From positions 16,430,001 to 16,494,000 of the forward strand of contig OX442316.1 of assembly GCA_949358305.1 (NCBI GenBank): DNA of 64,000 nucleotides, given 5' to 3'. Made by a program: the position numbers and the translations under genes. Numbering within the stretch: position 1 is the stretch's first letter; each line of letters starts with the position of its first letter. The notes below the pieces were generated by a model. That model worked only from the letters and a program-made list of their open reading frames with translations, was not told where the DNA came from and searched no databases. This document shows positions 1,225 to 30,470 of the stretch, one piece after another. The stretch is from Strigamia acuminata. Lineage: Eukaryota > Arthropoda > Chilopoda > Geophilomorpha > Linotaeniidae.

Positions 1225-1410
1225 TAAATTACTTCTTGGTCAGTCTGTCTTCGTCTTGGTTGTGAGCAAAGGCTTCGAGAGCTTCGAGTACGTTTAGAGT
1301 GAGAAAACGAACAGACATCAATAGGTCTCAACCAATCACAGCGCGTCATGAAAATAATACGTTCAAGTCGGACGTGAACGTAGCCACTGCCTATTTAGTA
1401 ACCATCTAAT
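1225..1410 (-). pseudogene. Decayed fragments of peptide-array genes (propeptide exon relic A1 plus a B-type start-codon relic)
   Basis: On the minus strand 1303-1232 reads as a mutated copy of the A-type propeptide exon: the VLEALEAFAHNQDEDRLTKK-like core is visible, but the LSLDEL part is altered, the tandem DNQYDEQDNKLNQDE block is missing and there is no acceptor. At about 1405-1388 an ATGGTTACTAAA block identical to the start of B-type signal exons runs straight into a stop. These are the left-most remains of the array. Confidence 0.55.
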
Positions 1411-1767
1411 CATCTTCTTACATGAAAAACAAAAAACAAATAATAAGTTGTGATTTACACTTGAAAACTGTTCTATACTTAAGTATACTTTTATTTCTTG
1501 TTGCGTTATAGCATAATGAATGTACGAGATGTCAAAACTATTCAATTTCCTAGTTGAATGCCTGCTTGCTAGCAATGATTTACGCCTAACTAGGCCTAAC
1601 CTAACATTGGAATTTCAGTTCAAGTTGAGAATTGATAAATGCCGCCCTCTGTCTATAATTCCATCCAACTGTATTTTATCTTTAAATAAAATTTACAATA
1701 TTTTGTCGTTTGTTGATTAGCATATTTTATTTAAATTGGTACAGATTGTATTCAAATTTTATATTTA

Positions 1768-2026
1768 TTAACGATTGCAGAAGCGACTACTCGGTCGAAA
1801 TGTACACAAAATGTTTCGATACTTTTGTTTCCCTGAAAATAAAATAAAACATTAAAATTTAAATGAGGGCGTTTTAAAAAATGATGACTAAATTTTGTGT
1901 TCAATTTACTTCTGGTCAGTTCGTCTTCGTCTTGGTTCAACTTATTGTCTTGTTCGTCGTATTGGTTGTCAGCAAAGGCTTCGAGAGCTTCGAGTTCATC
2001 CAGACTGAGCATCTCGTCTCCATTCC
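1768..2026 (-). CDS. Hairpin-peptide precursor A2, exons 2-3 (own signal exon degenerate)
   Basis: Exon 2 is 2026-1910 (117 nt, acidic propeptide with LSLDELEALEAFADNQ and LNQDEDELTR). Exon 3 is 1832-1768. Splicing at CCAGAA/GTAAAT and TTTTCAG/GGAAAC keeps phase 1 and gives a 21-residue basic tail with two cysteines (ILCTFRPSSRFCNR core), the same plan as A3-A6. The usual R-S-K-R furin site is changed to R-R-K-Q. The expected signal exon at 2060-2140 is recognisable but carries frame-breaking changes next to a minisatellite. The copy is therefore either dying or served by the upstream exons of B0 (2842-2527), which are phase-compatible. A conserved 3' flank with AATAAAATATGCTAATC (1731-1715) follows. 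Confidence 0.55.
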
Positions 2027-2200
2027 CTAAATACAATGTTTCATTATACAACACTCAGAAGACCCATTTGCAAATATTTAAAACTGACTCAAATAAGTGC
2101 ATTGACTAGGATGTTAACTAACATAACAGTGTGCTTGGCGGACACAAGTTTCTGGACAAACGGCACACATTTTTCGAACTGCTTTTCAACAAACTTGTGT

Positions 2201-2424
2201 AAAAATGCATTTTTTGGTCCGAAAATACATTTTTTGGCCCAAAAATGCATTTTTTTGAATGCAAATTGCATTTTTCTGGCCTGATAATGCATTTTTTGGA
2301 TCTGAAAATGCATTTTTTGGATTTAAAAATGCATTTTTTGGATCTGAAAATGCATTTTTTGGATCTGAAAATGCATTTTTTGGATCTGAAAATGCATTTT
2401 TTGGATCTGAAAATGCATTCTTTG
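2201..2424. repeat. 21-bp minisatellite (aaaatgcattttttggatctg)
   Basis: About ten tandem units of 21 bp; the right six or so are nearly perfect and the left ones diverged. Each unit contains the palindrome aaaatgcatttt and a T-tract. Because 21 is a multiple of three, all frames of both strands stay open and give meaningless heptad proteins. It sits exactly where the signal exon of A2 should be intact. Confidence 0.85.
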
Positions 2425-2526
2425 TATTATACATGGCCAGAAACACATGGGCGCAGCAGAATACCCTACGAACGGACCTGGCACCACAAACAGACTAAGG
2501 AAATTATTATCATTGTTACACAATAC

Positions 2527-2842
2527 CTCGCGCTCGACCTTCATTCTTGTCGTTAATCGTGAAAGAAATACTTCGTCCTTTGCTGGTGTTACTATTGTTG
2601 TTGTTGACCGGTTTCTCATCTTGGTTAGTACCAACATTCTCAAAGATCCCAGAGTCCTGCAGGTCGTTCAATGCAATCATCTCATTTTCATTTGCTTAAA
2701 AGAAATAATTGGTTTTTTTTTTTTTTTACTAAATGATCATAATTAATAAAAAGATTAATTTTTTCTTGCTCTTACCCATTGGAAAACATGTTACCAAGTG
2801 TACACTGACAAGAAGTGTGATAAACACTCCGGAAATAATCAT
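2527..2842 (-). CDS. Peptide precursor B0, signal and propeptide exons without their own mature exon
   Basis: Exon 1 is 2842-2776: a 22-residue signal peptide (MIISGVFITLLVSVHLVTCF) ending at a GTAAGA donor in phase 1. Exon 2 is 2694-2527, starting ANENEMIALND as in B-type genes. The rest is divergent: it holds one NQDE block, an Asn/Ser-rich stretch (NNNNSNTSKGRS) and ends in GRAR before the GTATTG donor. No two-cysteine exon lies between here and A2. The phase-1 junction would splice correctly onto A2 exon 2, giving a chimeric gene with two propeptides. Whether it is expressed cannot be seen from the sequence. Confidence 0.5.
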
Positions 2843-3139
2843 CTAAATGGAGGAAATCAATGTTGAATTTGTGGTTATAATGTTTAGATTGGAATTTACA
2901 CTACGGTATACCTTATTTTCTGAACTTTTGCTGGAACTGCGACTTGACACAATAATAGATAGACAATAAACCAAAATGATAAAACTTCCTTTTTATTCAA
3001 CCCATAAACTTCCCCTGTTTATGTTTTGTCTTCTGTGAAAAAGGGAATGATGAATTTCTGTTTTAAATAGTTTTTAAAAACATAACAGGAACTGTTTTGT
3101 TTATGAGTAAAGATGAGTTAAGTGACAATTGACAAATCA
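2843..3139. other. Spacer upstream of B0
   Basis: AT-rich spacer with no convincing gene, tandem repeat or retroelement. It should contain the B0 promoter, but I see no copy of the conserved array boxes. Confidence 0.4.
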
Positions 3140-3341
3140 ACATCAACATCCTGCAATAGGATGATAATAACATCAGCTTGGTTGCTGGCGTCATTCAGGG
3201 CAGTCATTTTATTTATATTGGCTAAATATGTTAAAATGATGTACAATCATGGGGATTGAGTTATCTATAGAATTATTATCTCCCGATGGCACGAAATGCA
3301 GAGTTAAGAAAATCACGCACAGCGTTATTAGTAACCATCAT
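3140..3341 (-). pseudogene. B-type peptide gene pseudogene (B1 relative)
   Basis: The sequence aligns with exons 1 and 2 of B1. Exon 1 (ATG at 3341-3339) has a frame-breaking indel near its start, which reads into TAA codons. The donor GTTACT of B1 is mutated to ATAACT. The exon 2 remnant holds MTALNDASNQADV but then stops matching, and exon 3 is absent. Its 5' flank (3342-3530) repeats the B1 5' flank (6264-6410). Confidence 0.75.
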
Positions 3342-3750
3342 CTTCTTGCATGAAAAAACAAAAAACAAAATAATAAGTTGTGATTTACACTTATGAAAAC
3401 TGTTCTATACCTAAATACACCTTTATTTCTTTTTGTGTTACAGCATAAACGTGTTTGGTAACCTGTTTACAAGTATATACTTCTGTAAACATGTTTTTGG
3501 TGTAACTAGTTATACTTAATGAGTTCTTGGTTGAATGCCTGCTTGCTAGCAATGATTTACGCATAATTAGGCCTAACCTAACATTGGAATTTCAATTCAT
3601 GTTGAGAATTGATAAATGCCGCGTGCCGCCCTCTGCATATAATTTATCCAACCGTATTTTATCTTTTAATAAAATTCACAACATTTTCTCGTTTGTCGAT
3701 TAGCATATTTTATTTAAATTGTTACGGACTGTATACATATTTCATAATCA

Positions 3751-4147
3751 TTAACGTTTGCATAAGTGACTGTTCGGATGATAATAACACCAAATACCTC
3801 GATACTTTCGTTTACCTGAAAATAAAATAAAACATTAAAATTTAAATAAGGGCGTTTTAAAAAATGATGACTAAATTTTGTGTTCAATTTACTTCTGGTC
3901 AGTCCGTCTTCGTCCTGGTTCAACTTATTGTCTTGTTCGTCGTATTGGTTGTCAGCAAAGGCTTCGAGAGCTTCGAGTTCATCCAGACTGAGCATCTCGT
4001 GTTCATTCCCTAAATGCAATGTTTCGTTATACAACACTCAAAAGACACATTTGCAAATATTGAAAACTAACCCATCGAAATGCATTGGCTCAATGTTACC
4101 AAACACAAAGTCACGAGAGCAATGCACAATATATTTGAACACTTCAT
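3751..4147 (-). CDS. Two-cysteine hairpin peptide precursor A3 (antimicrobial-peptide-like)
   Basis: Three exons: 4147-4072, 4009-3893 and 3815-3751, with GT-AG introns in phase 1, giving 85 residues. Residues 1-25 are a signal peptide (MKCSNILCIALVTLCLVTLS, then QC). The middle about 39 residues are strongly acidic (LSLDELEALEAFADNQ, NQDEDGLTR). The exon 2/3 junction creates R-S-K-R, a furin-type site, releasing an 18-residue basic peptide KYRGIWCYYHPNSHLCKR with C-x8-C. This signal/acidic pro/cationic hairpin layout is typical of arthropod antimicrobial peptides; the resemblance to thanatin-like hairpins is structural only and membership is not proven. AATAAAATATGCTAATC follows at 3714-3698. 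Confidence 0.8.
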
Positions 4148-4195
4148 CTTGCAATGAAATTACAGTGCAACTGTAAACAAAGTGACCACAGTTTT

Positions 4196-4633: not shown

Positions 4634-4731
4634 TTATTTTCCACAAAAGCGACCACCCCAAGAACACCCCGGTCTCGGCCGAGGAAAACCCGGTCTCGGC
4701 CAAGTCGGAGGACGTCTTATCATCCTCTTAT
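4634..4731 (-). CDS. Orphan terminal exon for a proline/arginine-rich peptide
   Basis: After an ACAG acceptor (4735-4732), 32 phase-1 codons encode D/N-K-R then MIRRPPTWPRPGFPRPRP and a C-terminal loop CSWGGRFC-GK, ending in TAA. Pro-Arg-rich peptides with a C-terminal Cys loop are a known antimicrobial style in arthropods. The 3' flank is almost the same as that of B2 (6880-6975), so this is a relative of B2 exon 3. Its own exons 1-2 are missing: the sequence upstream switches to A-type 3' flank. A4 (5406-5147) lies just upstream in the right orientation and phase, so it could be an alternative last exon of A4, or a relic. Confidence 0.55.
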
Positions 4732-5003: not shown

Positions 5004-5406
5004 TTAACGATTGCAGAAGCGACTAGTCGGTCGAAATTTACACCAAATACTTTTTATTCCGCGTTTACCTGAAAATAAAATAAAACATTAAAATTTAAAT
5101 AAGGGCGGTTTAAAAAATTTATGACTAAATTTTGTGTTGAATTTACTTCTGGTCAGTCCGTCTTCGTCCTGGTTCAACTTATTGTCTTGTTCGTCGTATT
5201 GGTTGTCAGCAAAGGCTTCGAGAGCTTCGAGTTCATCCAGACTGAGCATCTCGTCTTCATTCCCTAAATAAATTGACATTTCGTTATATAACACTCAAAT
5301 TGACCATACTTATAAATATTTAAAACTAACCCTTCGAAATGCATTGGCTCAATGTTACCAAACACAAAGTCACGAGAGCAATGCACAGTATATTTGAACA
5401 CTTCAT
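5004..5406 (-). CDS. Two-cysteine hairpin peptide precursor A4
   Basis: Exons 5406-5331, 5263-5147 and 5068-5004 give 85 residues with all splice sites intact. The signal peptide differs from A3 by very little (ends QCISK). The propeptide is the LSLDELEALEAFADNQ type with NQDEDGLTR. The furin-type site R-S-K-R is followed by the mature hairpin GIKSIWCKFRPTSRFCNR (18 residues, C-x8-C, strongly basic). This is one of the cleanest copies. The orphan Pro-rich exon at 4731-4634 lies 270 bp downstream and is phase-compatible. Confidence 0.8.
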
Positions 5407-5784: not shown

Positions 5785-6263
5785 TTATCCACAAATAAAA
5801 GTATTCGGTTTAAAAGAACAAAAAAGCCGTCTTCCCATTTTCACTCCTTTCCACACGAATCTCACCACTTTGAAAACCATTTTGGGAATGGCCAATAACC
5901 CACGCTTGTCTGTAAAAACAAATGCACGGAAAAGGAGAATAGAAAACGAAAGTAATAAACAATAATTTTACTATTTAATTTACCTCGCATTTGATCAGTT
6001 TCGTGCTCGTTGGTTTCCATCAACGGTGGAAATACTTCTTGGTCGCTCGTGGTTTCGGAATCCTTCAATGGGTTGATGATGACATCAGCTTGGTTGCTGG
6101 CATCGTTCAGGCCAGTCATCTCATTTTTACTGGCTAAATAATTGTAAAATATGTTAAAATATGTACAATCATGCACCAGGATTGAGTAACCTATAGAGAA
6201 ATTATCGCCCAGTGATACGAATTGCAGAGTTAAGAAAATCACGCACAGCATTTTAGTTACCAT
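5785..6263 (-). CDS. Amphipathic-helix plus hairpin peptide precursor B1
   Basis: Exons 6263-6191, 6133-5984 and 5909-5785 give 115 residues. The signal peptide is MVTKMLCVIFLTLQFVSLGD-like. The acidic propeptide contains NQADVIINPL and SDQEVFPPLM blocks and ends HETDQMR. The junction gives R-D-K-R. The predicted mature part (38 residues) begins GLLAIPKMVFKVVRFVWKGV, which has helix-like spacing of hydrophobic and Lys/Arg residues, and ends in RRLFCSFKPNTFICG, the C-x8-C hairpin with a final Gly that could be amidated. The ATG chosen aligns with other B copies; an in-frame upstream ATG exists but is not conserved. Confidence 0.78.
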
Positions 6264-6390
6264 CTTTGTCATCTTATTACACAAGAAAACAAGACGAGAG
6301 TTGTAATTTACACATGAAAGCTATTCTATACTTTAGTTTACCTTTATTTCTTGTACAATGAATGTAACAGCAGACTGCCGAGATGTCAAT

Positions 6391-6971: not shown

Positions 6972-7448
6972 TTATTTTCCACACCAGCGACCACTGCGAC
7001 CACTGCAACCTGGTCTCGGCCAAGTAGAACCCGGTCTCGGCCAAGTAGAACCCGGGCTAGACCAAGGTCTTTTCATCCTCTTATCTGTAAAAGCAAGAAC
7101 ACAATTGTAACAAAATTTAAAACTAGGTAATATTGTGTATTAGTTTGCCTCTCATTTGCCCAGTTTCATCCTGATTCGTTATCGGTAAAATAACTTCATC
7201 TTGATTGCCGGCAGATTCAAGATTAGTCAACGGTATGATGACATCGTCTTGGTTGTTAGCGTCAAACTCTGTTTCGTCATTCAGGGCAGACAACCCATTT
7301 TTGACGGCTGAATAATTTTAAAAATACATTAAAGTAATGAATTATGTCACGGATCGTGCATAATTGACCTACCAAATGAACAACTGGGGCCAAATGAAAC
7401 CAAACTCACACTTACAAGAAAAACACTCATCAATTTAGTAACCATCAT
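6972..7448 (-). CDS. Proline/tryptophan-rich peptide precursor B2
   Basis: Exons 7448-7373, 7307-7149 and 7084-6972 give 115 residues. The signal peptide is MMVTKLMSVFLVSVSLVSFG. The propeptide carries the B-type repeats NNQDDVIIPLTNLESAGNQD and ends TGQMR. The junction gives R-D-K-R. The mature part starts MKRPWSSPGSTWPRP, repeats GSTWPRPG and ends CSGRSGRWCGK (C-x7-C). This is a Pro-rich peptide on a B-type scaffold, whereas its near-identical neighbour B3 carries a hairpin peptide. Intron 2 would use a GC donor (AGAG/GCAAAC) where other copies have GT, which is rare but functional in animals; otherwise the copy may be damaged. Confidence 0.68.
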
Positions 7449-8078: not shown

Positions 8079-8520
8079 TCATCCAAGGTTACACACGCGA
8101 CTGTTTGGTCTGAATTGACACCAAATTTGTCCTCCACGTATGGCAGCATCGCCAACTCGTCTCCCGGTTTCTCGCCAACCACCACGCTTATCTGGAAATA
8201 AAATAAAACATCAAAATTTAAAGGGTTAAAAAATTAAGACTAAATTTTGTGTTCAATTTACTTCTGGTCAGTCCGTCTTCGTCTTGGTTGAACTTATTGT
8301 CTTGTTCGTCGTATTGGTTGTCAGCAAAGGCTTCCAGAGCTTCGAGTTCATCCAGACTGAGCATCTCGTCTTCATTCCCTAAATAAATTGACATTTCGTT
8401 ATACAACACTCAAAAGACCATACTTATAAATATTTAAAACCAACCCTTCGAAATGCATTGGCTGAATGTTACCAAACACAAAGTCACGAGAGCAATGCAC
8501 AATAAATTTGAATACATCAT
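8079..8520 (-). CDS. Extended hairpin peptide precursor A5
   Basis: Exons 8520-8445, 8378-8262 and 8191-8079 give 101 residues. The signal peptide starts MMYSNLLCIALVTLCLVTFS and the propeptide is the A type. The junction gives R-N-K-R. The mature part is longer than in A3/A4 (34 residues): a Gly/Arg-rich lead (GGWRETGRRVGDAAIRGG) is followed by the hairpin QIWCQFRPNSRVCNLG, with a C-terminal Gly suited to amidation. The lead resembles A6 and the B-type hairpin genes, so A- and B-type propeptides carry related mature exons. Confidence 0.78.
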
Positions 8521-9091: not shown

Positions 9092-9522
9092 TTACTTCTT
9101 TCCACAAATGCGACTGTTCGGATTTTTACTGCAATAATATTTTCTTCCCATCTTGGCTGCTTTCCACGCTAGTCCCGCAGCCATACCAACCCAACGCTTA
9201 TCTGTGAAAACCCAGAACACAATTTAAACAAAACACAATATAAAATGATTTTAGTTTACTTCTCATTTGCTCAGTTTCATCCTGATTCGTCATCGGTAAA
9301 ATAACTTCATCTTGATTGCCGGCATATTCGAGATTGGTCAACGGTATGATGACATCGTCTTGGTTGTTAGCGTCAAACTCTATTTCGTAATTTTAAAATA
9401 CGTTAAAATAATTAATTATGTTACGTATCGTGCATAATTGACCTACCAAATGAATAACTGGGGCCAAATGAAACCAAACTCACACTGACAAGAAAAACAC
9501 TCATCAATTTAGTAACCATCAT
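9092..9522 (-). CDS. Amphipathic plus hairpin peptide precursor B3 (exon 2 start deleted)
   Basis: Exon 1 (9522-9447) encodes MMVTKLMSVFLVSVSLVSFG and ends at a GTAGGT donor. Exon 3 (9201-9092) encodes N-K-R then WVGMAAGLAWKAAKMGRKYY and a C-x8-C loop CSKNPNSRIC-GKK. Compared with B2, a deletion removed the normal acceptor and about the first 13 codons of exon 2. A cryptic AAATAG acceptor (exon from 9379 to 9260) would keep the reading frame and leave NNQDDVIIPL through EQMR. The copy may thus still work with a shortened propeptide. Exons 1-2 are otherwise almost identical to B2. Confidence 0.6.
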
Positions 9523-10173: not shown

Positions 10174-10614
10174 TCATCCAAGGTTACACACACGACTATT
10201 AGGTCTGAATGAACACCAAACTCTTCCTCCACCTATGGCAGCATCGCCAACTCGTTTCCCGACTTGAGCGATTTTTCCCCAATCACGACGCTTATCTGAA
10301 AATAAAATAAAACATCAAAATTTAAAGGGTTAAAAAAATTAAGACTAAATTTTGTGTTCAATTTACTTCTGGTCAGTCCGTCTTCGTCCTGGTTCAACTT
10401 ATTGTCTTGTTCGTCGTATTGGTTGTCAGCAAAGGCTTCGAGAGCTTCGAGTTCATCCAGACTGAGCATCTCGTCTTCATTCCCTAAATACAATGTTTCA
10501 TTACACACCAGTCAAAAGACCATATATTTAAAACTAACCCTTCGAAATGCATTGGCTCAATGTTACCAAACACAAAGTCACGAGAGCAATGCACAATAAA
10601 TTTGAATACATCAT
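10174..10614 (-). CDS. Extended hairpin peptide precursor A6
   Basis: Exons 10614-10539, 10483-10367 and 10295-10174 give 104 residues. Signal and propeptide exons are nearly the same as in A5. The junction gives R-N-K-R. The mature part (37 residues) begins RDWGKIAQVGKRVGDAAIGG and ends RVWCSFRPNSRVCNLG, again with a terminal Gly. Together with B3 it forms the second copy of the B2-A5 block. Confidence 0.78.
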
Positions 10615-11342: not shown

Positions 11343-11759
11343 CTATTGCTTTCCACAAATGCGACTGTTCGGCCTTTTACTACAAACATATTTTTTCCAC
11401 GCTTGTGCCGCAGCCGAACGCTTATCTGTGAAAACCCAGAACAAAATTTAAACAAAACACAAAATATAAATGATTTTAGTTTACTTCTCATTTGCTCAGC
11501 TTCATCCTGATTCGTCATTGGTATAAAAGCTTCATCTTGATTGCCGGCAGATTCAAAATTGGTCAACGGTATGATCACATCGTCTTGGTTGTCAGCGTCA
11601 AACTCCATCTCGTCTTTCAAGGCATTCATCGCGGCTAAATAGTTTTAAAATATGCTAAATATGTCACCAACCATGCGTAATTGACTTACCTAGTGAATAA
11701 CTGGGGCCAAATGACACCAAACTCACCAACAAAACGCACATCAAATTAGCAAACATCAT
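11343..11759 (-). CDS. Short hairpin peptide precursor B4
   Basis: Exons 11759-11690, 11634-11485 and 11425-11343 give 100 residues with normal GT-AG introns. The signal peptide is MMFANLMCVLLVSLVSFGPS. The propeptide has the blocks DNQDDVIIPLTNFESAGNQD and ends EAEQMR. The junction gives R-N-K-R. The mature part is 24 residues: SAAAQAWKKYV then CSKRPNSRIC-GKQ (C-x8-C). It ends in TAG, where most copies have TAA or TGA. Confidence 0.78.
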
Positions 11760-12275: not shown

Positions 12276-12727
12276 TTATTTTTTCCCACAAATAGCACTA
12301 TTCGGCTTCTTGTGGCACCAAATTTTGTGTCCAATTTTGGCTCCGACTCTGGCAAGGACTCCCCAAAAACGCTTATCTATCCAAATAAAAATAAAATTAT
12401 ATTCAAGATAATATAAAACATTAGTTTTAATTATACCTCGCGTTTTTCCATATTCATCCTGATTCATTAATGGTACGATGACATCGTCTTGGTTGCTGGC
12501 AGATTCGAAACTCTTTAATGGTATGACGACATCGTCCTGATTGCTGGCGTCAAAGTTCATTTCGTCGTTCAGCGCAGTCATGTCATCTTCATTGGCTAAA
12601 GAATTTTTTAAGAACATTGAAAAATGAATCAAATGATTCAGATTTACTTACCCAATGACAAACTGCGGCCAAATGCCAACAGATTCACGGTGAGAAAAAG
12701 GATGCACATCGAATTAGTAACCATCAT
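12276..12727 (-). CDS. Amphipathic plus hairpin peptide precursor B5
   Basis: Exons 12727-12652, 12595-12437 and 12376-12276 give 111 residues. The signal peptide is MMVTNSMCILFLTVNLLAFG. The propeptide has two clear repeats, SNQDDVVIPLKSFESASNQD and NQDDVIVPLMNQDE, and ends GKTR. The junction gives R-D-K-R. The 30-residue mature part is FWGVLARVGAKIGHK joined to IWCHKKPNSAICGKK: an amphipathic cationic segment followed by the C-x8-C loop. All splice signals are intact. Confidence 0.8.
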
Positions 12728-13207: not shown

Positions 13208-13312
13208 TTTCAAAGCAAGCCCTTTTTTTACTAAACCAAGGCGTAGTAAATAGAAACTCTCGTTACATCTTAGTTGTAAACAACCAAAAAGTACACAGTT
13301 TCAGGCTTTTCG

Positions 13313-13516
13313 AGATTGGTCAACGGTAAGATGACATCGTCTTGGTTGTTAGCGCCAAACTCCATCTCGTCATTCAAGGCATTCAATCCGGCTAAATAGT
13401 TTGAAAATATGTTAAAACGATGGATAATGTCCCGGACCATGCATAATTGACTTACCTAGTGAATAACTAGGGCCAAATAACACCAGCAAAACGCACATTA
13501 AATTAGTAAGCATCAT
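13313..13516 (-). pseudogene. B-type peptide gene B6, truncated
   Basis: Exon 1 (13516-13456) encodes MMLTNLMCVLLVLFGPSYSL with a good GTAAGT donor; it lacks three codons present in B4. Exon 2 starts normally at 13391 (AGLNALNDEMEFGANNQDDV) but after the TNLE block runs into unrelated upstream-type sequence and a stop. The second half of exon 2 and all of exon 3 are gone. Its promoter has been moved 15 kb away by the retroelement insertions that start at 13601. Confidence 0.75.
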
Positions 13517-16122: not shown

Positions 16123-16124
16123 CG

Positions 16125-16142
16125 TGGAGGTCCCACCGAGAT
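16125..16142 (+). promoter_or_regulatory. Primer-binding site, tRNA-Gln type
   Basis: Two bases after the LTR, TGGAGGTCCCACCGAGAT is complementary to the 3' end of an animal tRNA-Gln (ATCTCGGTGGGACCT plus CCA). This would prime minus-strand DNA synthesis. Confidence 0.75.
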
Positions 16143-16988
16143 AGGTTGCATTTTATCGAAGTGAACTCTGTGATCCAAGTGTAAAAATTGAAAAGCGAAT
16201 TTTTGATTATTTATGTAAATATTATAATCAGAAAATTTCAGATTTTCTCCTTGAACTTACTGCGCAATATTCATTTGTTTTCAAAAAAATTCTCATTATC
16301 TTTTGGAAACATTTGAAGTCGAATTTTTGGATTATTTTGAAAACTCATTATAATTCCGAATTTCGTACAAAAAATCTATTTTGATTTTGTTGAGTTTCCC
16401 AGAATATTCGGCTATATTCTGGAAAATTTTGAAACCCGAAATTTTGATCAAAAAACGATTTTGACCAGAATTTCTGCTAACGAAAGAATAAAAGTTAAAA
16501 TATTTTATTTTGCTGGTTAAAAGACTTGACCAAGTTTCCATTGTTCTGTTCAACGTTTTGGATTATTATTTTAATCTTTGACGAAGTAAAGAATGTAACA
16601 AAGAGAGCCACTCACGATGCAGCTCGGAGTGGGTCATCCAGATGTGGGATTGTTGAGAATTTCGGGTTAAGAAATTATCAGAAATTTTTTCAACATCACC
16701 AATCACAACAGACTGTCTTGACAAAAAAGGTTTTCCGGAAGCTAGTTTGACAACCAATATTCAGCCACACTTGCTTTTCGACAGTGCGACCATCCAGTTG
16801 TGCCTTTGTGACCAGTGCCCGTTGGACCATTCTTGACCACGCAACAGGACAGTTCCTTCCCGAAGCCACTTCAGCTTCAGCAGCTAAGGTTGTATTTTTT
16901 CAAATTATTTCTTAGTTTAATTTTAAGCGTGTTACATTTACGCTAGTTCAGTTAATTTTTATTTTGTACGTGTATTTCTTTGAGTATT
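16143..16988. other. Retroelement 5' leader
   Basis: About 850 bp of AT-rich untranslated leader between the primer-binding site and gag. It contains short upstream ATGs but no convincing ORF and would hold the packaging signal. Confidence 0.5.
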
Positions 16989-19037: not shown

Positions 19038-19068
19038 TTCAGGGGGTTGTTCAAGTTGTCCAACCCCC
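19028..19068 (+). promoter_or_regulatory. -1 programmed ribosomal frameshift signal (gag-pol)
   Basis: A AAA AAC (19028-19034) is in the gag zero frame as X-XXY-YYZ, directly followed by the gag stop codon. After a 7-nt spacer comes a perfect 8-bp GC-rich stem: GGGGGTTG (19042-19049) with CAACCCCC (19061-19068) and an 11-nt loop. Pol is open in exactly the -1 frame from this point. All three parts of a classic frameshift cassette are present. Confidence 0.85.
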
Positions 19069-22000: not shown

Positions 22001-23314
22001 AAGATGTATTTCTGGCCTAGAATGAGCAAAGACACTCGAAACTACGTTCGCAGTTGCACTCATTGCCAACAATACAAACCTAGTCAACACCAAAAGCATC
22101 GGGCAAGCTATACACCCCACAACATGACCAACCCGTGGGAGACTGTAAGCATTGACCTGATGGGACCAAAACCAGCCGGTCGTTCACAATTAAAATGGAT
22201 TTTAGTAATCATTGATAATTGTACAAAATGGATTGAAGTCTTCCCACTAGCGACTGCATCAAGTGAATGCATCGTTAATAAAATGAGCGAAGTTTTCCAC
22301 CGTTGGGGTTATCCAAAAAAGATAATCTCCGACAACGGCAAACAATTCGTGTCAACAATATTTAATGATTTTTGTCGAAAAAATCACGTAGATATTGCTC
22401 ACATTAGTCCATATCACGCTGCCGCTAATATTACAGAGCGGGCTAACAGGACTTTAAAAATGATGTTAGCTTTATACTCGGACATTCACTCTCACTGGCC
22501 AAAATATTTAAATTCTTTTGCCTTTGCGATGCGCACCGCTAAGTCCGAGGCAACAAATTGTTCTCCGATGATTCTTAATACGGGAAGAATCGTTCCTTTG
22601 CCATTTGACCCGCGTATTACTAAACACGCCATCAAATTCGACAAAGAAAATCCCGAAGCTTATGTCTATAGTATTTTAGACGTAATTAGACGTGCACACA
22701 GCGAAATGCATCGGAAAATTCAATCGAATTACGAAAAGCATGATCGACTACATAAAGACAAATATTATATTTGCCAATTTGCCAAAGGAGATCTCGTGTG
22801 GAAAGCCACACATATTTTATCAAATAAAGATAAAGGGATTTCGGCAGGATTCGCTGAGAAACGTGATGGACCTTGGGAAATTACGGCTGTTCTCGGCGGA
22901 GGTTCCTACACACTACGGAAGCTTTCTGATAACACGAAAGCACAAGCGATCAACATACAGGATTTAATGCCTTATATCCCAAGTTATCCGATTGAGGAAT
23001 GGACATTAGATCAGAAAGTCGGTACCAACGAGTCACACCCGACTCCAGATTGGATGGCAGGTCAGGTTATTAATTCTCCAGAATTAATAAATGACCCTGT
23101 GTCCACAGAAACAGAGGATTTAGTTGAAGGAAAAGAGGAGGAAACTTCTCAGATTTCTTCTAAAGAGGACGAAACTCCTCAAAATCCATCTAAAAAGAGG
23201 AAAAGATTTCCATCTCCCGTTCGACAGTCTAAACGAAGACCCAAGCCGAACACAAAATACGTGACCGATTTTGTACAACTCATAAATTGTTTAAAACAAG
23301 TCAAGTTGGGTTAG
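19034..23314 (+). CDS. pol: Pol polyprotein (protease-RT-RNase H-integrase), made by frameshift
   Basis: There is no plausible ATG near the 5' end; the frame is open from the slip site, so it should be made as Gag-Pol. Counting from 19079: aspartic protease motif ALMDSGATQ at about residue 147; reverse transcriptase with FTSIDLTKGYHQ and the catalytic VYLDDI at about 482; RNase H with ILTDASHSGLGAV near 632; integrase with an HHCC zinc finger (H..H near 955, CTHC near 993) and the D-D-E triad (SIDLMG, ISDNGKQF, ITERANR). A GPWEIT-type C-terminal integrase domain follows, then a Glu/Lys-rich tail. No chromodomain is visible. No stop or frameshift interrupts the 1.4-kb-residue frame. Confidence 0.93.
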   Translation: MIQGVVQVVQPPLKELFPLSELSNDLFSRKDEFKLRHKPSHLTVPYVDDSKNKPPSLVISYEAVPVCRKASSSTGGVDENLKIMTDQLENLSIFSGSWNAPKKPLVPKVFKLRKLLKLEKWNKKERKVLLGKLCNSKLINGGKDDPRMNVQIGGLDYNALMDSGATQCFIGVQLLSNTEIPVEFIQECPRGMRVCAVGIDHRPIGQVCLCVKWADKRRVTPMTFIILHKNVCGLILGHNFMRRTGINPNPRRAVFTCDDMPGWTAPYETTELNCCLASIRTLGLQGEGTPTSPDWAEKLVEGCNSSAEEKQLLVNVLVKLKNVFRDQLGCTKVAKHSIKFKPGATWKHQPYRMYNPAKKAIMTELVEELEADGLIEPATGPYISHPVIVAKPGGKYRLCIDYRWLNAITEVDAIQMPSIDLLIHHTNQAKYFTSIDLTKGYHQMEMEEEDKSKTAFYTLKGKFQFKRLPFGLCNAPSSFQHLMTTVLGDSLYKHALVYLDDIIIFSDTWENHLLHIKDVLEKLDAANLTINKDKSKFGRTSLRFLGHLISEGSLLPDPDKVSAVRNFPKPTCSKDIQRFVGLANFFRKFIPNIANIARPLTNIMHDQAKFVWDDSQTTAFETIKDILCDKDQALLHMPDMNKPFVILTDASHSGLGAVLCQDVELFCEKKQKLIMVPKAVAYASRVLHGAEVRYSTPELECLAVVWAIERFRPYIEYTTFTLESDAKALSWLMSTPEPSGRFGRWAVKIQCGAFKIIFRRGAMNQVADALSRAPLSALDTPDYDYIEPEEITHFYPTWNGNRCASLQVTETERKHFLTNVGLSLDFFSESYNPVRFHDSGEKGEEEGCTRENCRHIDVHNCNHENVHTALTDILKVVPPTRDEIIEAQLKDPACSKILVYLKGDEKLKNRITDKHWLNAIRGYTLDEPEENKGVMLIYFAPTDEEELNDSGNGFKAVIPRSLVRRALFACHGHPLTGHAGMSKTLDRAKKMYFWPRMSKDTRNYVRSCTHCQQYKPSQHQKHRASYTPHNMTNPWETVSIDLMGPKPAGRSQLKWILVIIDNCTKWIEVFPLATASSECIVNKMSEVFHRWGYPKKIISDNGKQFVSTIFNDFCRKNHVDIAHISPYHAAANITERANRTLKMMLALYSDIHSHWPKYLNSFAFAMRTAKSEATNCSPMILNTGRIVPLPFDPRITKHAIKFDKENPEAYVYSILDVIRRAHSEMHRKIQSNYEKHDRLHKDKYYICQFAKGDLVWKATHILSNKDKGISAGFAEKRDGPWEITAVLGGGSYTLRKLSDNTKAQAINIQDLMPYIPSYPIEEWTLDQKVGTNESHPTPDWMAGQVINSPELINDPVSTETEDLVEGKEEETSQISSKEDETPQNPSKKRKRFPSPVRQSKRRPKPNTKYVTDFVQLINCLKQVKLG

Positions 23315-24619
23315 AACACAATATATTGAAAATATTTTATTTTAAATAAATATTTCCAATCATATTCACGAAGGATTGTTAAATTTTATTGATTAAAAAC
23401 ATTTTTTTTTTGTGTGAATAAAATCTAACAAATGTTTGAGTTATTTTTACACGGCCGATTATATTTAAATTAATCTACGTGTAAACATTTACTTGAAACT
23501 ATGTTTCCCCCTTTGGGTTAATAGAAACTTCGAGATGAGTAATTGCAAACCAATCAAATTACTCCTCGAAACTCCCCTTAACCCCTGGTCTGAGATTATC
23601 ACTCACTTGTTCGCCAAGTTTTGTACTGGACTGAAATCAAGGATTATTCTCGACTTTTCGACACTTCAACGGATTTTCGCTGGAATTTAGTGAGTTAAAA
23701 TCTAGAAGATTTTGAACACTTATCGTTTGTTTTAACTGATTTTTCTCATTTTGACCAATATCAGTTTAAACTTAGGAATTACCGATACACTGCTTGTATA
23801 TCGAAACCATTTCGTGGCAGAATCGCAAGGAACCTTCCCGCGAATTCACTACGTGATTTTCCGGTAAATATTTAAGCAATATTTTGTCAAAATTAATAAT
23901 ATTTTGACATTAATTGACGACATTTATTTTGGTTAAGCGTCCATTACGGCAGACTTAGAGTTCACACGCGCCGCACAACGTTTTTATCGGCCAACGTCGC
24001 CGGAACCGAGCAGCCCTCGCAAATACGTGAAGCTAGACATTAAACTAGCCAAATATACCCTTCTAGGACTACACCTAATTAGTAAGTGTTTATTTTATGA
24101 AAGATAAAATATCTCTTAAGTTCCTCGGAAATTGGTGAGCATACATGTGTTAACAAGTCACGTGTATGATAGTGACAAACGCCACCAGATGTCGGTGATA
24201 GATTATTTACTCGGACGAATTATAGAGTTATTCGTCCAGCTAAAATTATGTAAAGTGACTATTGTCAGGTACTAAAATGCTTGCAAAAATATTTTTTAAT
24301 ATTTTGACAGGTTTTTTAGTTATCATGTCGTTTAGATGCCAAAATTAGGTTTATTTCATCTAATAAACGCTAAATTGAATATTTTATCAACAATATTGTT
24401 TTTAAAGGATAAGATGAAATTATCTACCAAGTCGAGAATAATTATTAATTTTAATAATTATTCGACAAATAAAGGAAACACGCTAACAAAAGGAACTTAA
24501 GAATTAATTATGGAATTTAACCCGATTTTAGGTCGACAATTAGTTTAATTTAAATTAAATTAGTTGCCGACGTTTCGATTCATGTTCTCAAATAAAATTT
24601 ATATTTTCTTGAAGATGCA
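23315..24619. other. Retroelement spacer between pol and ORF3
   Basis: 1.3 kb, AT-rich, no long ORF. Just before ORF3 the sequence ttatattttcttgaag is a plausible 3' splice site, which could generate a spliced subgenomic mRNA for ORF3. Confidence 0.45.
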
Positions 24620-26275
24620 ATGAGTCGCCGAGGTCGTGCTAGCAAGCGACAATACGTGCATTGGGATCCAGAAGAGTCGGAAGAGACGGATTATCGCTTT
24701 GTTAATCCCTCCTCTGACCCCGAGCTCGTCGCCAACTGGGCCCGTGATAACCCGGATCTCGTACCGCCACGAATTAGGAGCGCCATGGGCGTTAGTCCGA
24801 ACGACTCGCGTCCTTCCAGAGGCCGTCAAGCTAGTCAGCGCGTCGTAACCTATGATGCGCCTCACGAGACTCCGAATTGGGATTTTTCTGACGACTCGTC
24901 ACAATACTCCCGTTCTGCTTCACGGAGACGGCGCCAAGATGACTTCTCGCAAGAAGAAGAATCGGTTGAAGAAGCTCCACCTCAGACCACCAGCAGGCAG
25001 TTTGCCCGACCACGAAATCCTCGCGATACCGCTAGTCGAGGAAAAACCGGCAAGTCCAAAGGACCCACCAAGTCCACGTTGGCATCTTCATCCGAAGCGC
25101 TGACTCGCCCAACATCGCAAGCTCGCTCATTATCGGAGCTCAACTTACCGAGTTATCGTAAGCAACGGCGAGAACACGTGTTTCGCGATATGGAAGCTGC
25201 CGCCTTGGGAACCAATATCATGCCTAAATCGAAGTTGATGTTCTGCCCATTGTGCGCAGGATGCGGGTGGTTATCTTCACTTTTGTCCGGCATTCACGCC
25301 GTAGTCTGCGTGAACTGTCACGGTGGTAAGCGCGTTGCCATATCGAGCATGTGGAACGAGGAAATTCTTCCATTCATCGTCAAAGGGCTAAGTACGCCGA
25401 CAGCACGCAATTGGGCGATGTGTCGCGAATGTGGCCTCATCCACCAGGGCCCGGAGCAAGCTATTTATTTAGAACCGGCGCAAATGTCCAGCAACTCGAC
25501 TCCACGAGGAGGATTTACGGAGCCACAACCCGAGCCGGCTACCTCCGCCAAGGTGATTGATGGGACTCCAGTTGTCTCGGCGGAAAACCTTCCAACGTCA
25601 GTTACTGCGTCTGATTCTCCGCCGGTTGCATCCGATTCTGGTCCACAAGCCGCCGCTTCTCCAGAGGGAACATCGATTAACAACATGATTGTAGCGACTA
25701 TTCCGCTCCCAGAAGTAAGCCACGCTGTTGAACCGGTTATTTTACTGGTCCACCCATATATGCCGAGACCAGACATGTCACTCACGGAGCAAACTAAGGC
25801 GGAAGTGGAACATTATTTCCCAATTTTATTGGAAGCAGCTAAGCGTATTAGTGTGTCGATTTCAAACGACCGAATTCCAGATTTGAGCGTGCCACTGGCC
25901 GTGATCCAATGGATTTTCCATCCATCCCGGCCGGAATCTTTTCAAACCCGCTCTTTTATTTGGTGTAAGATTTTGCAACAGGTCTCAGCAGCAGCACACC
26001 CATTGATTCGTGAGGGATGGCACTCTGGCTTACCCAACCATCACTTGGTTTTCTCCGAGCCAACCAGCGCTAACACCATTCCGTTAGGAGGGCCTGATCC
26101 CCTGGAAGTATTCACCGAGGAACAACACAGAATGCTCCTGAATCCACTGGCCCATGACGTTGAGCCAGATGTAGTACCGGAATTGGTAGCTATTCAACTT
26201 AATTCTCCACCCGCAGCCGTCTCGGAAGTTGTTACATCCATGGAGGGTTTTATTGAGGATGAAGAGTTGGACTAG
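24620..26275 (+). CDS. Third ORF of the gypsy element, cysteine-rich, not a recognisable envelope
   Basis: 551 residues from ATG to TAG. The first about 190 residues are Arg/Ser/Glu-rich and disordered (MSRRGRASKRQYVHWDPEES). A middle cysteine cluster follows: CPLCAGCG, CVNCHGGK, and CRECGLIHQ, spaced like one or two zinc-binding folds (about residues 205-285). Then comes a Pro/Ala/Ser linker and a C-terminal alpha/beta-looking part (LPEVSHAVEPVILLVHPYMP onward). I see no signal peptide, transmembrane segment or fusion-peptide pattern, so it does not look like the env of errantiviruses. Position after pol and an intact frame suggest it is used. Function unknown; nucleic-acid binding is one guess. 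Confidence 0.8.
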   Translation: MSRRGRASKRQYVHWDPEESEETDYRFVNPSSDPELVANWARDNPDLVPPRIRSAMGVSPNDSRPSRGRQASQRVVTYDAPHETPNWDFSDDSSQYSRSASRRRRQDDFSQEEESVEEAPPQTTSRQFARPRNPRDTASRGKTGKSKGPTKSTLASSSEALTRPTSQARSLSELNLPSYRKQRREHVFRDMEAAALGTNIMPKSKLMFCPLCAGCGWLSSLLSGIHAVVCVNCHGGKRVAISSMWNEEILPFIVKGLSTPTARNWAMCRECGLIHQGPEQAIYLEPAQMSSNSTPRGGFTEPQPEPATSAKVIDGTPVVSAENLPTSVTASDSPPVASDSGPQAAASPEGTSINNMIVATIPLPEVSHAVEPVILLVHPYMPRPDMSLTEQTKAEVEHYFPILLEAAKRISVSISNDRIPDLSVPLAVIQWIFHPSRPESFQTRSFIWCKILQQVSAAAHPLIREGWHSGLPNHHLVFSEPTSANTIPLGGPDPLEVFTEEQHRMLLNPLAHDVEPDVVPELVAIQLNSPPAAVSEVVTSMEGFIEDEELD

Positions 26276-26937
26276 AAAAGCGTCCACGATGTCGGGATCC
26301 GTTACTTTCCCGATATCTTCCCCTTTTAGGCAAGACCAGAAGTAACGAGTCCATCTTCTCCATCTCCATTGCTTGACCCGAGATGAAGCAAAAATTTAGT
26401 CAGGTTCAGGTGTATTTTATGCCGTTTTTTTTTGTGAATAATTCAAAGATCTTTAATATTTAAACTAACAATTCTGTTAAAATTTGATTACGAGTCAATG
26501 TGAGTTTGTTTTATATGAATACTAATTTTAATACTTGAATTTTAACGTGTAAAGTGTTATTTTGCAAACCATTATATTTCCAATGAGAAGTTAAGTTTTG
26601 TGAAAATAATTGTTAAATTTTATTAATCATTTGTTTGATACAAGAGTTTGATGTTAGTTTAAGTTATTGCCTTTTCTTGATGCAGTTGTAAGTCCACCTG
26701 TAAAGAGAGATTGGAATTATTATTAATAATTGAGAGTTTTATAACCCTAATAAATATTTTTTGAAGCATTTGATTAAGAAATACTCTTTATTTATACTAT
26801 TAAGATATAAAATAAAGGTTTTTACTTACCAAGGATTACAGCTCCAGTTCCATAGATGACAGTGTGGTCTTGATCCTCAAGATATTCGGAATAAATAGTA
26901 TGTTAATACAGGTATTAACATATATTTAAGGGGGACT
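26276..26937. other. Retroelement 3' noncoding region with polypurine tract
   Basis: AT-rich noncoding sequence ending with the polypurine tract aaggggga (26928-26935), two bases before the 3' LTR. This is the plus-strand primer position. Confidence 0.7.
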
Positions 26938-28529
26938 TGTGACGGTTACACTGTCATACACTTTGTTAGTATAGGACGATTACTTCACCAATAGATGGCG
27001 CTGATACGTTTTAGCGGTAATTTCAAATTTCGACAATTTTTGAATGAATATAAAATATAAATTACTATTTATATTTTATTCCACTGCGACTTTATACACT
27101 TTTAAATACTTTTGGATGTTTTAATACTAGTTGATTTATTTGTCACATAATTCTATTGAATTATGTGCAAACTTTACACCTGGTGAAGTCACCCTTCATC
27201 ACCCACTGTGAGTTGGACTCCTTTTGGATTATAGTCAAAGGGACTTAATCCAAAATGTGTCCTGCGTATCCAGTTCCTGTTTTGGACCTAGTAGAAGACT
27301 ATGTCCTGAGTATCCACTTCCTATGACCTAGGATTGGATGGATTTGACTGCCCAGTGATCCCATTGGATCACTGAACAGCTATTCTCCTCACCGAGTATA
27401 TATCCCCCTGCAAAACGGATATAGCTCGCTCTTGTTCTGTTTTTGTTTGATACTGATATTACTTGAGCACATATTATACTTCTCTGCGTTCCGACAATCC
27501 GTTGTAGAAATACCTTGTATTTAGTGTAAGTATCTAGAGTGGGTAGAAGACTCACAGACACACTGCCCGCCTCTTCATGCCAACATTCCGTTGTAGAAAT
27601 GTCGTAACTAGAGTGAGTAATTCACAGACACATTTAAGTGTAGGATCTAGAGTGGGGTACAACCCACAGACGCACTCCCGCCAGCTTCATGCCAACATTC
27701 CGTTGTAGAATGCAGAATCTAGAGTGGAGTAAAATTCACAGACGCATTGGTAATGTAGCATCTAGAGTGGAGTATTTAATATTCCACAGACACATTATCA
27801 GAGTAATCGACGCGGAGTAATTTCCCGGTTACTCTCCCGCCAGCCAGGACCGAGTGGAGTAATTTCCCGGCGATGGATAACCTTTCCTGCGAGATATTTC
27901 GATTCAATTCGTTATTGGTTTGACGGAACATTTAAGTCTAACTTAGATGTTGATTGCACTCGGGGCAAAAAATAGCTCGGCGCTATTTTAATATATTTTA
28001 CTTATTTTCACAGTTTAAGTTAAGTTTGTGACTCTAAAATATCATGATTAATTCCATAGAATTAATATGACTATTTATTCTCACATTGTTACATCTCGCG
28101 GTAATTATTGATTACAATAATTATCTGCGATGCGATGTGTGTGACGATACAGAAAAGCCAACCGCACCTCTCGGATATAACCCACCCAGCCTAACCATTT
28201 ACACGCCTTTTAGAATCAAACCCCGGACCATTTAGAAGCCAAAGCCATTCATAGATGACATCTTTTACGTCACAGCAATAAGACCGTTACAAATTCTTAT
28301 TGCATGACTGAAGCCTTCAAATGATATTATTTCAGGGTTTTTGCCACATAACTGTATAGTTTAACTTATCGTCATTTTAGCCACTTGTAGGCATAATAGT
28401 TATATAAGTTTCAACCGGAATAAATGTTATATGTTTTGAGAAAACATCAGGTTTGCATATTTTACACTTTCACACAGATAGTTCACACTTTAGTTTAGCA
28501 ATTGCTATCTCCAGAAGGTAATCGTCACA
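26938..28529 (+). repeat. 3' LTR of the gypsy element
   Basis: 1592 bp, the same length as the 5' LTR and indistinguishable from it in all stretches compared, including the five hairpin repeats. Confidence 0.92.
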
Positions 28530-28533
28530 TGGG

Positions 28534-28618: not shown

Positions 28619-28677
28619 CTCTGTGTCTATAAAAAGCAAACCAATGAGAGCCACTTGCTCTTCTTCTGTATTTATGG

Positions 28678-28697
28678 GAGAATAACTGTCATTTCTC
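28678..28697 (-). promoter_or_regulatory. B-box of B6, displaced by the retroelements
   Basis: gagaataactgtcatttctc is the same variant as before B4. It was once about 140 bp upstream of B6 and now lies 15 kb from it. Confidence 0.4.
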
Positions 28698-29056
28698 ATT
28701 AAAAAACAAACCATCTTGAAGGAAAACAAGGCGTGTAGTTTTAGGATACAAATATAATAAGAATTCTGTTTGTGTTGTCGTATTATCATTCGACATTTGA
28801 GCATTGCTCAAAGCTTTGTTTGTGCAAATAAATTAGCATGTTTTGAGTCAATTGGATCTTTGCAAAAGGAAATTAGAGGTTAGGAATTAATTTTAAAAAT
28901 AAAAAAAAATAAAAACCCTGAGAAAAATTTTCAATTTAAACAAACAAAACGGACACAACTCAATATACTTTAAGCAACTTTATTGACCATCGATCTTTAC
29001 AAGCATTAGTAAAACGGTTTGAATCAAGAACATTTTTGTTGATGAAACACGTGTAT
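28698..29056. other. Spacer between the displaced B6 promoter and B7
   Basis: Closely related to 11919-12275 between B4 and B5. It confirms the block duplication. No gene is seen. Confidence 0.5.
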
Positions 29057-29521
29057 TTATTTTTTCCCACAAATACGACTATTCGGCCTCTTGTGGCACC
29101 AAATTTTATGTCCAATTTTGGCTCCGGTGAAAGCGAGGCCTACCCAACGCTTATCTATCCAAACAAAAATTAAATTATATTAGGAAAAATATAAAAACGT
29201 CAGTTTTAATTAAATTATAGTCTTGTTTACCTCGAATTTTGCCATATTCATCCTGATTCATTAATGGAACGATGACATCGTCTTGGTTGCTGGCAGATTC
29301 GAAACTCTTTAATGGTATGACGACATCGTCCTGATTGCTGGCGTCAAAGTTCATTTCGTCGTTCAGGGCAGTCATGTCATCTTCATTGGCTAAATAATTT
29401 TTTTAAAATATTAAAAAATGAGTAAAATGAGTCAGAGTTACTTACCCAATGACAAACTGCGGCCAAATGCCAACAGATTCACGGTGAGAAAAAGGATGCA
29501 CATCGAATTAGTAACCCTCAT
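29057..29521 (-). CDS. Amphipathic plus hairpin peptide precursor B7
   Basis: Exons 29521-29446, 29389-29231 and 29154-29057 give 110 residues. It is the sister copy of B5: the signal peptide is MRVTNSMCILFLTVNLLAFG and the propeptide is nearly identical, ending GKIR. The junction gives R-D-K-R. The mature part is WVGLAFTGAKIGHK joined to IWCHKRPNSRICGKK (29 residues). Against B5 the changes concentrate in the first mature residues, while the hairpin is kept. Confidence 0.8.
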
Positions 29522-29638
29522 CTATATAAACGAAATTTATAAAAAATTTATATCGTTCTGTTCGTCGTTTACGGTACCTTGTCTGTTGCGATTGTTATTG
29601 AAGTTTAACAGTCAACTAAATGCCAGCTTTCATCCTTG

Positions 29639-29668
29639 TATATTTATGTCAAAATATACTGTCATTCT
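29639..29668 (-). promoter_or_regulatory. B7 promoter: TATA-like element and B-box
   Basis: Minus-strand CATAAATATA beside AATGACAGTA (plus tactgtcattct, 29657-29668), about 136 bp before the ATG, as in B5. Confidence 0.48.
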
Positions 29669-30021
29669 GTTTAAAAACTCTCCTTTTTTTGGAAAATTTG
29701 GAACGGAACCCAGTAGAGACAAACAACAACAACAAGGATATTTTTGATAGAAAATTCAAGATAAAATCGCGAAACTAATTGTAAACCGTAAAATTGTCAT
29801 GCGTGACTTGATTTAGCTCATAAAGGAACATCTAATTGATCAATTTTTGACATTTAGTTCGATTTATTTCTTCTTGCTCAGTTTATTGTCAACAAATTAT
29901 TTTAGAAATAAACTAATAAACATATTGGTCGATTTAAATTCCCATTTATTTTTATTTCGTTTCCATTTGCAATAAATTACAATGCAAAAATGAATATTCA
30001 ATGATAATGAGGTATGTTTAT

Positions 30022-30470
30022 TTATCCGAGGTTACAAAGTGGACTTTTTTGTTGCGTAACTAAACACCACATGGTTCCTCCACGTACGATAATGTCTTGT
30101 ATTTTTTTGGCAATCATTTTAAGCTTGTCCAGTTTCCCACGTTTGCCTGCAAACAAATTCATACAGATAAAATGAATTAAAGAATAAAAACAAACAAAAT
30201 TGTGTGATTTATACTTCGAATTCGCTCGTCTTCTTCCTGATTGAGCTGATTAGTGATGTCGTCGTCTTGATTGCCGACAACAGCCTCATTCAAAGCGAGC
30301 AACGTGTCGCCATTCCCTAAATTATTATTTTGTTTTTTGGAATAAAAATCAAAAATTTAGATAATATTTTTGAATACCGGAATTTATAACTAACCCACGG
30401 GAAAACTTTGGCTAAATGTAACCAAATGCAATGTTAGAAGAAAAATGCATATTAAATTGGCAGTCGACAT
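30022..30470 (-). CDS. Divergent peptide precursor C1 (right end of the array)
   Basis: Exons 30470-30395, 30316-30215 and 30146-30022 give 100 residues. The signal peptide is MSTANLICIFLLTLHLVTFS. The short acidic propeptide (GNGDTLLALNEAVVGNQDDD) mixes A-type start and B-type NQDD features and ends DERIR. The junction gives R-S-K-R. The mature part (38 residues) starts GKLDKLKMIAKKIQDIIVRG, an evident cationic amphipathic segment, then TMWCLVTQQKSPLCNLG with C-x9-C and a terminal Gly. It looks like an early-diverged member. Confidence 0.75.

Follow-up and report, generated by a model that had tools for sequence, protein, structure and literature searches.

What does a run of short, intron-split genes on one strand of a centipede chromosome encode? 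The genes in question lie in a 64,000-nucleotide stretch of the Strigamia acuminata assembly (GCA_949358305.1, contig OX442316.1, positions 16,430,001 to 16,494,000 of the forward strand), here called the window, in whose coordinates all features are given unless stated otherwise. A reading made from the sequence alone had proposed that they form an undescribed antimicrobial peptide (AMP) locus. The genome paper of Strigamia maritima, the first for a myriapod, describes immune receptors and pathways but states that it identified no AMP homologues (PMC4244043). In a study of eight arthropods including Strigamia, AMP domains of Drosophila are reported, in the sections at hand, only from Ixodes and Mesobuthus, and AMPs are described as often confined to single clades (PMC4833078). 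Our analysis indicates that the array probably encodes a family of Strigamia host-defence (antimicrobial) peptides, and the locus is a concrete candidate for the missing AMP effectors.

Eleven precursor genes on one plan

We drew 11 complete three-exon gene models (labelled g1 to g11 in this analysis), all on the minus strand between 3.7 and 30.5 kb of the window. An orphan exon for a mature peptide and some five incomplete copies bring the array to about 17 units. The one-strand array on a three-exon plan described from the sequence alone is thereby confirmed, and its counts of about 16 copies, nine of them complete, are revised upwards. A signal-like start is encoded by exon 1 and an acidic propeptide by exon 2, while the end of a furin-type site and the entire mature peptide come from exon 3; in all 11 precursors the furin-type R-x-K-R site is interrupted by intron 2. 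The introns measure 55-78 bp, and their donors are GT in 21 of 22 cases and GC in the other (g4 intron 2).

Only models with GT or GC-AA donors, AG acceptors, introns in phase 1 and an exon 3 that begins with a dibasic were enumerated; junctions, intron phase and KR are therefore search conditions and not results. Features that were not imposed are the P4 Arg of R-x-K-R, the charges, the lengths and the fit to the S. maritima protein T1J1F6, discussed below. The chosen model was the top-scored one for g1, g3, g4, g5, g7 and g8 and was tied for g2, while for g6, g9, g10 and g11 the top-scored option was not taken and the model was picked by alignment with the other copies. As a chance control we used an exon-3 signature consisting of AG, a phase-1 dibasic and a short open reading frame (ORF) ending in a Cys pair. 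It matched 13 times on the minus strand of the array (12 of these being the family), once on the plus strand of the array and not at all on either strand of the window's right half; 100 Markov resamples gave a mean of 0.19 matches and a maximum of two. The gene anatomy is given as open, family-consistent models.

The chemistry of the precursors is uniform at the level of charge and processing. Counted over K, R, D and E, the net charge is -8 to -12 in the propeptide and +4 to +8 in the mature part of all 11 precursors, and each has R-x-K-R before the mature part (RSKR in three, RDKR in four, RNKR in four). The charges and the processing site are established, and the predicted secreted design of signal, acidic propeptide and basic mature part with a furin-type dibasic site, as first read from the sequence, holds throughout, as does the P4 Arg (11/11). 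The precursor alignment has nine invariant columns; they include R, K and R of R-x-K-R as well as both mature cysteines.

Every one of the 11 mature parts has a single, C-terminal Cys pair. The spacing is C-x8-C, a ring of ten residues, in nine of them, C-x9-C in g11 and C-x7-C in g4, and it is C-x6-C in the orphan exon. The sequence-only reading had picked out C-x8-C; the turn that it gave as [RKH]-[RK]-P-N-[ST] is really [FKY]-[RKHN]-P-[NT]-[ST] across the nine copies, with P-N-S or P-N-T in eight and P-T-S in g2. A Gly positioned for amidation is found in nine of the 11 and in the orphan exon (endings CG, CGK, CGKK, CGKQ or CNLG). Such a Gly is missing from g1, where the ending is CKR, and from g2, where it is CNR; the tail of g8 is Gln.

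The mature parts follow three designs. The loop-only design is that of g1 (3751..4147; exons 4147-4072, 4009-3893 and 3815-3751), whose mature peptide has 18 amino acids (aa) and C-x8-C, and of g2 (5004..5406; exons 5406-5331, 5263-5147 and 5068-5004), also with 18 aa. The Pro/Trp/Arg-rich design, followed by a loop as had been predicted, comprises g4 (6972..7448; exons 7448-7373, 7307-7149 and 7084-6972), with a Pro/Trp/Ser-rich mature peptide, and the orphan exon 3 downstream of g2 (4634..4731, minus strand), which is Pro/Arg/Trp-rich and has a CGK end.

The remaining eight genes have a predicted helix-plus-loop design. They are g3 (5785..6263; exons 6263-6191, 6133-5984 and 5909-5785; 38 aa), for which an ATG at 6272 is an alternative start and 6263 was picked by choice; g5 (8079..8520; exons 8520-8445, 8378-8262 and 8191-8079); g6 (9092..9522; exons 9522-9447, 9379-9260 with a shifted acceptor, and 9201-9092); g7 (10174..10614; exons 10614-10539, 10483-10367 and 10295-10174); g8 (11343..11759; exons 11759-11690, 11634-11485 and 11425-11343), with a short helix; g9 (12276..12727; exons 12727-12652, 12595-12437 and 12376-12276); g10 (29057..29521; exons 29521-29446, 29389-29231 and 29154-29057); and g11 (30022..30470; exons 30470-30395, 30316-30215 and 30146-30022), the most divergent copy. 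Compared with shuffles, the hydrophobic moment reached p<0.05, uncorrected, in five of the eight helix-type segments (g3, g5, g7, g9 and g11) and 0.06-0.07 in the other three. Although its moment was significant, g4 was left out of this count, being Pro-rich with no regular helix possible; g1 and g2 were too short. An AlphaFold model of the g7 mature part, with a mean predicted local distance difference test score of only 68, has a helix at residues 3-27 followed by a loop, with no strands, and suggests a helix-then-loop fold.

A relative in Strigamia maritima

A profile built from the 11 precursors (641 candidates, E<=1) matched a sole relative among 5.77 billion proteins, S. maritima T1J1F6, at E=2.9e-42. 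Such a profile search against proteomes had been proposed with the sequence-only reading, and the relative in a second Strigamia species is established by it. A second profile search, started from T1J1F6, returned only T1J1F6 itself (7,406 candidates, E<=10), and the g7 precursor as a single query found no protein relative (2 candidates); the protein search requires shared exact words and similar length, and distant relatives could escape it. Short, intron-split and fast-changing genes can elude similarity-based annotation, as the one annotated relative in about 5.8 billion proteins illustrates.

T1J1F6 keeps the whole plan, with a signal, an acidic NQDD-type propeptide, RDKR, a W-rich start, a helix-like part and a C-terminal C-x8-C with KPNSRIC (the PNS turn) and a CGKK end. 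It is identical to g9, which is among the copies nearest to it, at 80 of 145 alignment columns. Its propeptide differs from those of the array in being longer, with extra copies of a repeated NQDE-type unit, and no exon in the S. acuminata genome matches it at more than 77% identity, so it is no exact copy of any array gene. UniRef lists it as 'Uncharacterized protein' and does not mention an antimicrobial role.

Within S. acuminata, a six-frame search of 237,517,015 bp in 157 contigs with g9, g7, T1J1F6, g11 and g3 as queries (the Pro-rich g4 not among them) gave no match at E<0.1 outside C4:16431902-16460470, an interval in contig coordinates that lies inside the window. Weak matches outside the window had E values of 0.6 or worse. 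As far as this search can tell at its sensitivity, the family appears to be confined to one locus in this species.

That the family was not recognised from its sequence is in keeping with the database results, the one homologue being uncharacterised. Pfam gave nothing better than E 0.03 for the 11 members; the matches to OB_RNB (four of 11) and Arnt_C (one of 11), at E 0.03-0.1, were judged to be chance. A profile search of the PDB with the family had no matches, and neither had the mature part of g9. The 13 rows returned for the mature part of g7 were all designed 'Pizza' propellers, shown at about 3 bits per repeat, and were likewise judged to be chance. No description of the family was found in the open literature searched, which lacks most subscription papers.

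Probable host defence and its rivals

Masked host-defence peptides have a standard design in which a furin site joins an acidic propeptide to a basic mature part, and the array is a case of one masked-precursor plan bearing different peptide designs. The antimicrobial reading, which we favour, fits this design, the amphipathic segments, the variants rich in Pro and Arg and the faster-changing mature parts. The original proposal of an antimicrobial candidate is upheld in part, as regards a secreted, furin-type-processed cationic family; an antimicrobial function of that family is probable.

We infer the following course from expression to antimicrobial action. After expression, the signal peptide would direct the precursor into the secretory route. 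The acidic propeptide would offset the basic mature part and hold that part inert, and a furin-type protease would cleave after R-x-K-R. The two cysteines would form a disulphide and with it a small C-terminal loop, and in most members trimming of the basic tail would uncover a Gly that can be amidated at the C-terminus. Members of the helix-plus-loop design would attach to microbial membranes and disrupt them through their N-terminal amphipathic helix, which the loop would cap at the C-terminal side, and the Pro/Arg/Trp-rich members may act like arasin-type peptides, partly within bacteria. Tandem duplication at a single locus would have enlarged the family, with signal and propeptide exons kept and the mature exon diversified or replaced.

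The differences between copies bear on this last step. Three pairs, g1/g2, g5/g7 and g9/g10, have an exon 1 that is 97-99% identical and an exon 2 that is also 97-99% identical, but an exon 3 of only 69%, 87% and 87% identity, respectively. In all three, nonsynonymous change in the mature part far exceeds that in the propeptide (p=3e-8, 3e-5 and 4e-4), and the concentration of change in the mature exon is established. The non-coding flank was taken as intron 2 together with the 150 bp downstream; measured against it, the mature part has changed more in both g5/g7 (p=0.003) and g6/g8 (p=0.0005), and in g1/g2 when intron 2 alone is used (p=5e-6). The ratio of nonsynonymous to synonymous change (dN/dS) was computed for 13 pairs, of which the four closest within subfamilies were used for contrasts; in these it is 0.09-0.43 in the propeptide. 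Infinite ratios for the signal peptide were ignored because zero synonymous changes lay beneath them.

These differences also bear on the idea that the peptides serve another secretion, be it sternal or coxal gland defence, reproductive glands, or a neuropeptide or hormone family. A signal peptide, KR cleavage and Gly amidation are common to neuropeptides and gland peptides, and the function of an acidic propeptide is non-specific. Neuropeptide families, however, usually hold the mature peptide more constant than the propeptide, and in the array the mature part is significantly more variable in three of the four close pairs, comes in three unlike designs and carries a net charge of up to +8. 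We regard this explanation as decidedly improbable.

Several results weigh against the host-defence reading. In the fourth pair, g6/g8, nonsynonymous change does not differ significantly between mature part and propeptide (p=0.11), and the mature part of g9/g10 does not change significantly more than its flanks (p=0.52). With the downstream 150 bp included, the comparison in g1/g2 gives p=0.19; this downstream stretch is itself diverged, at 60% identity with 66 gap columns. The mature dN/dS of 0.74-1.08 in the four closest pairs does not clearly exceed 1; strict positive selection was not found and is not claimed. Synonymous change is also raised in the mature part in three of these pairs, and the pattern is therefore at least partly due to the replacement of exons or to gene conversion of the flanks; either may account for it without positive selection. 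Of 13 upstream regions of 500 bp (11 genes and two incomplete copies), none contains a kB-like site by either of two consensus patterns, so that there is no sign of insect-style NF-kB induction. To these points is added the composition of the venom of S. maritima, in which 12 toxin families are reported, including the new peptides CHLTX01, GEOTX01 and GEOTX02, in the part of the study available (PMC6878950).

Venom is the strongest rival: the array peptides would be made mainly in the forcipular venom glands and serve as cytolytic or other prey toxins, and may correspond to GEOTX01 or CHLTX01 of S. maritima. Centipedes are venomous, and venom peptides are often encoded in tandem arrays whose prepro region stays constant as the mature part varies. 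Linear antimicrobial peptides are also reported from Scolopendra venom in the accessible text of one source (PMC4379518). GEOTX02, which in the excerpt at hand has 8-10 cysteines and fungal relatives (PMC7864903), is set apart by the two cysteines of the array mature parts, which are hence not GEOTX02. Nothing else in the analysis counts against venom. The lack of kB-like motifs weakens the case for inducible immunity by one argument, yet it does not favour venom. We consider a venom role unlikely.

A different upstream motif may be a common control element. Ten of the 11 genes, all except g11, carry AATGACA at a distance of 115-155 bp before the start codon. It is the core of the palindrome GGAATGACnGTCATTCC, which is perfect only in g4, where AATGACA sits in a perfect GGAATGAC-GTCATTCC palindrome. 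The motif is only a lead because close copies share it by descent.

Replacement of the mature exon is displayed directly by g4. Its signal exon is 97% and its propeptide exon 95% identical to those of g6, whereas the mature exons, at 54%, are unrelated. The mature exon of g4 is homologous to the orphan exon, and the likeness runs from about 24 bp before the orphan exon to about 240 bp past it. The orphan exon is phase-compatible as an alternative last exon of g2. In favour of this, a 3' block found in six places of the array has AATAGA for AATAAA only at g2; against it, two further AATAAA motifs lie between g2 and the orphan exon, so that the role is a possible one that is not strongly indicated. 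Beyond the host-defence reading itself, we put forward tentatively, and at somewhat short of even confidence, that this is a centipede-specific AMP family whose one locus is organised as a peptide cassette, in which a constant unit for secretion and masking, made up of the signal exon and the acidic phase-1/phase-1 propeptide exon with its end inside the furin site, would be combined with interchangeable mature exons of three designs, with perhaps an alternative last exon after g2, and which would fill the myriapod AMP gap.

Incomplete copies raise the further question of whether the array is largely decaying, a region of ongoing duplication in which only a few genes work and many copies are not expressed. 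A truncated copy (13309..13516) has the signal exon and part of the propeptide exon, without a mature exon. Another (2527..2842) has a signal exon (2842-2776) and a propeptide exon (2694-2527), without a convincing mature exon. In a third (1768..2054), propeptide and mature exons are present, no signal exon was found, and KQ stands for the dibasic KR at 1830. Two fragments complete the set, one at about 3148..3431, resembling g3 exons 1-2 and the g3 upstream region, and one at 1203..1303, a piece of propeptide exon with its following intron. All are on the minus strand. Alongside these about five copies, signs of decay include the orphan exon, the KQ at 1830, the GC donor of g4, the shortened exon 2 of g6 (39 nt shorter than that of g4, the usual acceptor being lost and the shifted AG having a poor pyrimidine tract) and a recent mobile element within the array. 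They are countered by the 11 complete open models, by the propeptide dN/dS values given above and by the homologous precursor annotated in S. maritima, and we judge wholesale decay to be very improbable.

The mobile element is a 14-kb long terminal repeat (LTR) element at 14531-28529, whose LTRs (14531-16122 and 26938-28529) are identical over 1,592 bp. It is a very recent insertion and disrupts none of the 11 gene models. By eye it contains gag-like and pol-like ORFs, and a third long ORF is without a Pfam match. It is flanked on both sides by TGGG and apparently sits within an older repeat, which lies upstream of the truncated 13309..13516 copy. Other repeats include a 21-bp tandem repeat at 2209-2449, downstream of the incomplete copy 2842-2527 and at the place expected of its mature exon, and a long inverted repeat seen by eye at about 300-355 and 660-720, which probably represents the ends of a small mobile element.

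Elsewhere in the window, two LRAT-domain genes (49587-50204 and 51901-52404; PF04970, E about 1e-15) are neighbours on the plus strand. Three long single-frame ORFs on the minus strand (33716-34978, 36929-38203 and 45599-46672) have hydrophobic stretches near their starts by eye and no Pfam match; they are possibly another local secreted family.

Comparison with known peptide systems

The sequence-only reading had likened the loop to thanatin-like hairpins. Thanatin is a cationic beta-hairpin with one disulphide near the C-terminus and the spacing C-x6-C. The array has C-x8-C with a P-N-S turn and a predicted helix, x6 occurring only in the orphan exon. The likeness is not supported, given the differing loop lengths and the low-confidence g7 model, which has a helix and then a loop and no strands.

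The segments before the loop in g5 and g7 recall the N-terminal helix of cecropins in composition. The cecropin profile PF00272 matched none of the 11 members and had no genome match at E<=0.1, where the control matched nowhere and absence is thus not proven. Collembolan cecropins are without cysteines, and diapausin, Alo, diptericin and defensin are either six-Cys or Gly-rich without Cys, in the available part of the source (PMC10051947), in contrast to the two cysteines of the array mature parts. The defensin profile PF01097 had two genome matches just above its 20.4-bit cut-off, at C3:32125836-32125931 (24.6) and C1:1849202-1849291 (23.0), the former with a six-Cys spacing that by eye is like that of cysteine-stabilised alpha-beta defensins; controls matched in three of 14 genomes, none above the cut-off. 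These two weak matches weigh against a complete absence of known AMP families in S. acuminata.

Among centipedes, the antimicrobial peptides scolopin, scolopendrin, scolopendin, scolopendrasin and pinipesin have been reported from Scolopendra, as far as the accessible texts go (PMC9325314, PMC4379518, PMC6754450). Like the array peptides they are short, and they are antimicrobial by report; the texts at hand describe no precursor array for them. By those descriptions, centipede venom AMPs of known sequence are linear and without a disulphide, which sets them apart from the array.

The mature parts of g4 and the orphan exon, Pro/Arg/Trp-rich and then with a C-terminal Cys loop, resemble the arasins of crabs. 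Arasin 1 is active on such a proline/arginine-rich and Cys-stabilised plan, and, in the sections available, it damages membranes well above its minimum inhibitory concentration and has a possible intracellular target at that concentration (PMC3543460). Arasin is described in the text at hand as having two C-terminal disulphides (PMC11678341), whereas g4 and the orphan exon have two cysteines each and one disulphide at most; the likeness is compositional.

In their predicted layout the helix-plus-loop members resemble the nicomicins of the polychaete Nicomache minor and the Rana-box peptides of frogs. According to the part of the report available, nicomicin-1 begins with an amphipathic helix and ends in a disulphide loop of six residues that is like the Rana box of frogs; it has an acidic proregion and is strongly active on Gram-positive bacteria (PMC6265681). 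Nicomicins also have mature peptides of 33 residues. Their ring and that of the Rana box have six or seven residues, compared with ten in nine of the 11 array members. The BRICHOS domain present in the nicomicin propeptide did not turn up when the 11 precursors were compared with Pfam at E<=5, and no sequence homology of the array to nicomicins or Rana-box peptides was found. Since the ring size and the propeptide domain differ, the array peptides are not nicomicins; they would work like them without being members. None of the sources searched has this family, its C-x8-C P-N-S loop or such a mix of designs built on a single precursor plan; the functional kind, a masked cationic peptide with a helix and a Cys loop, is already known.

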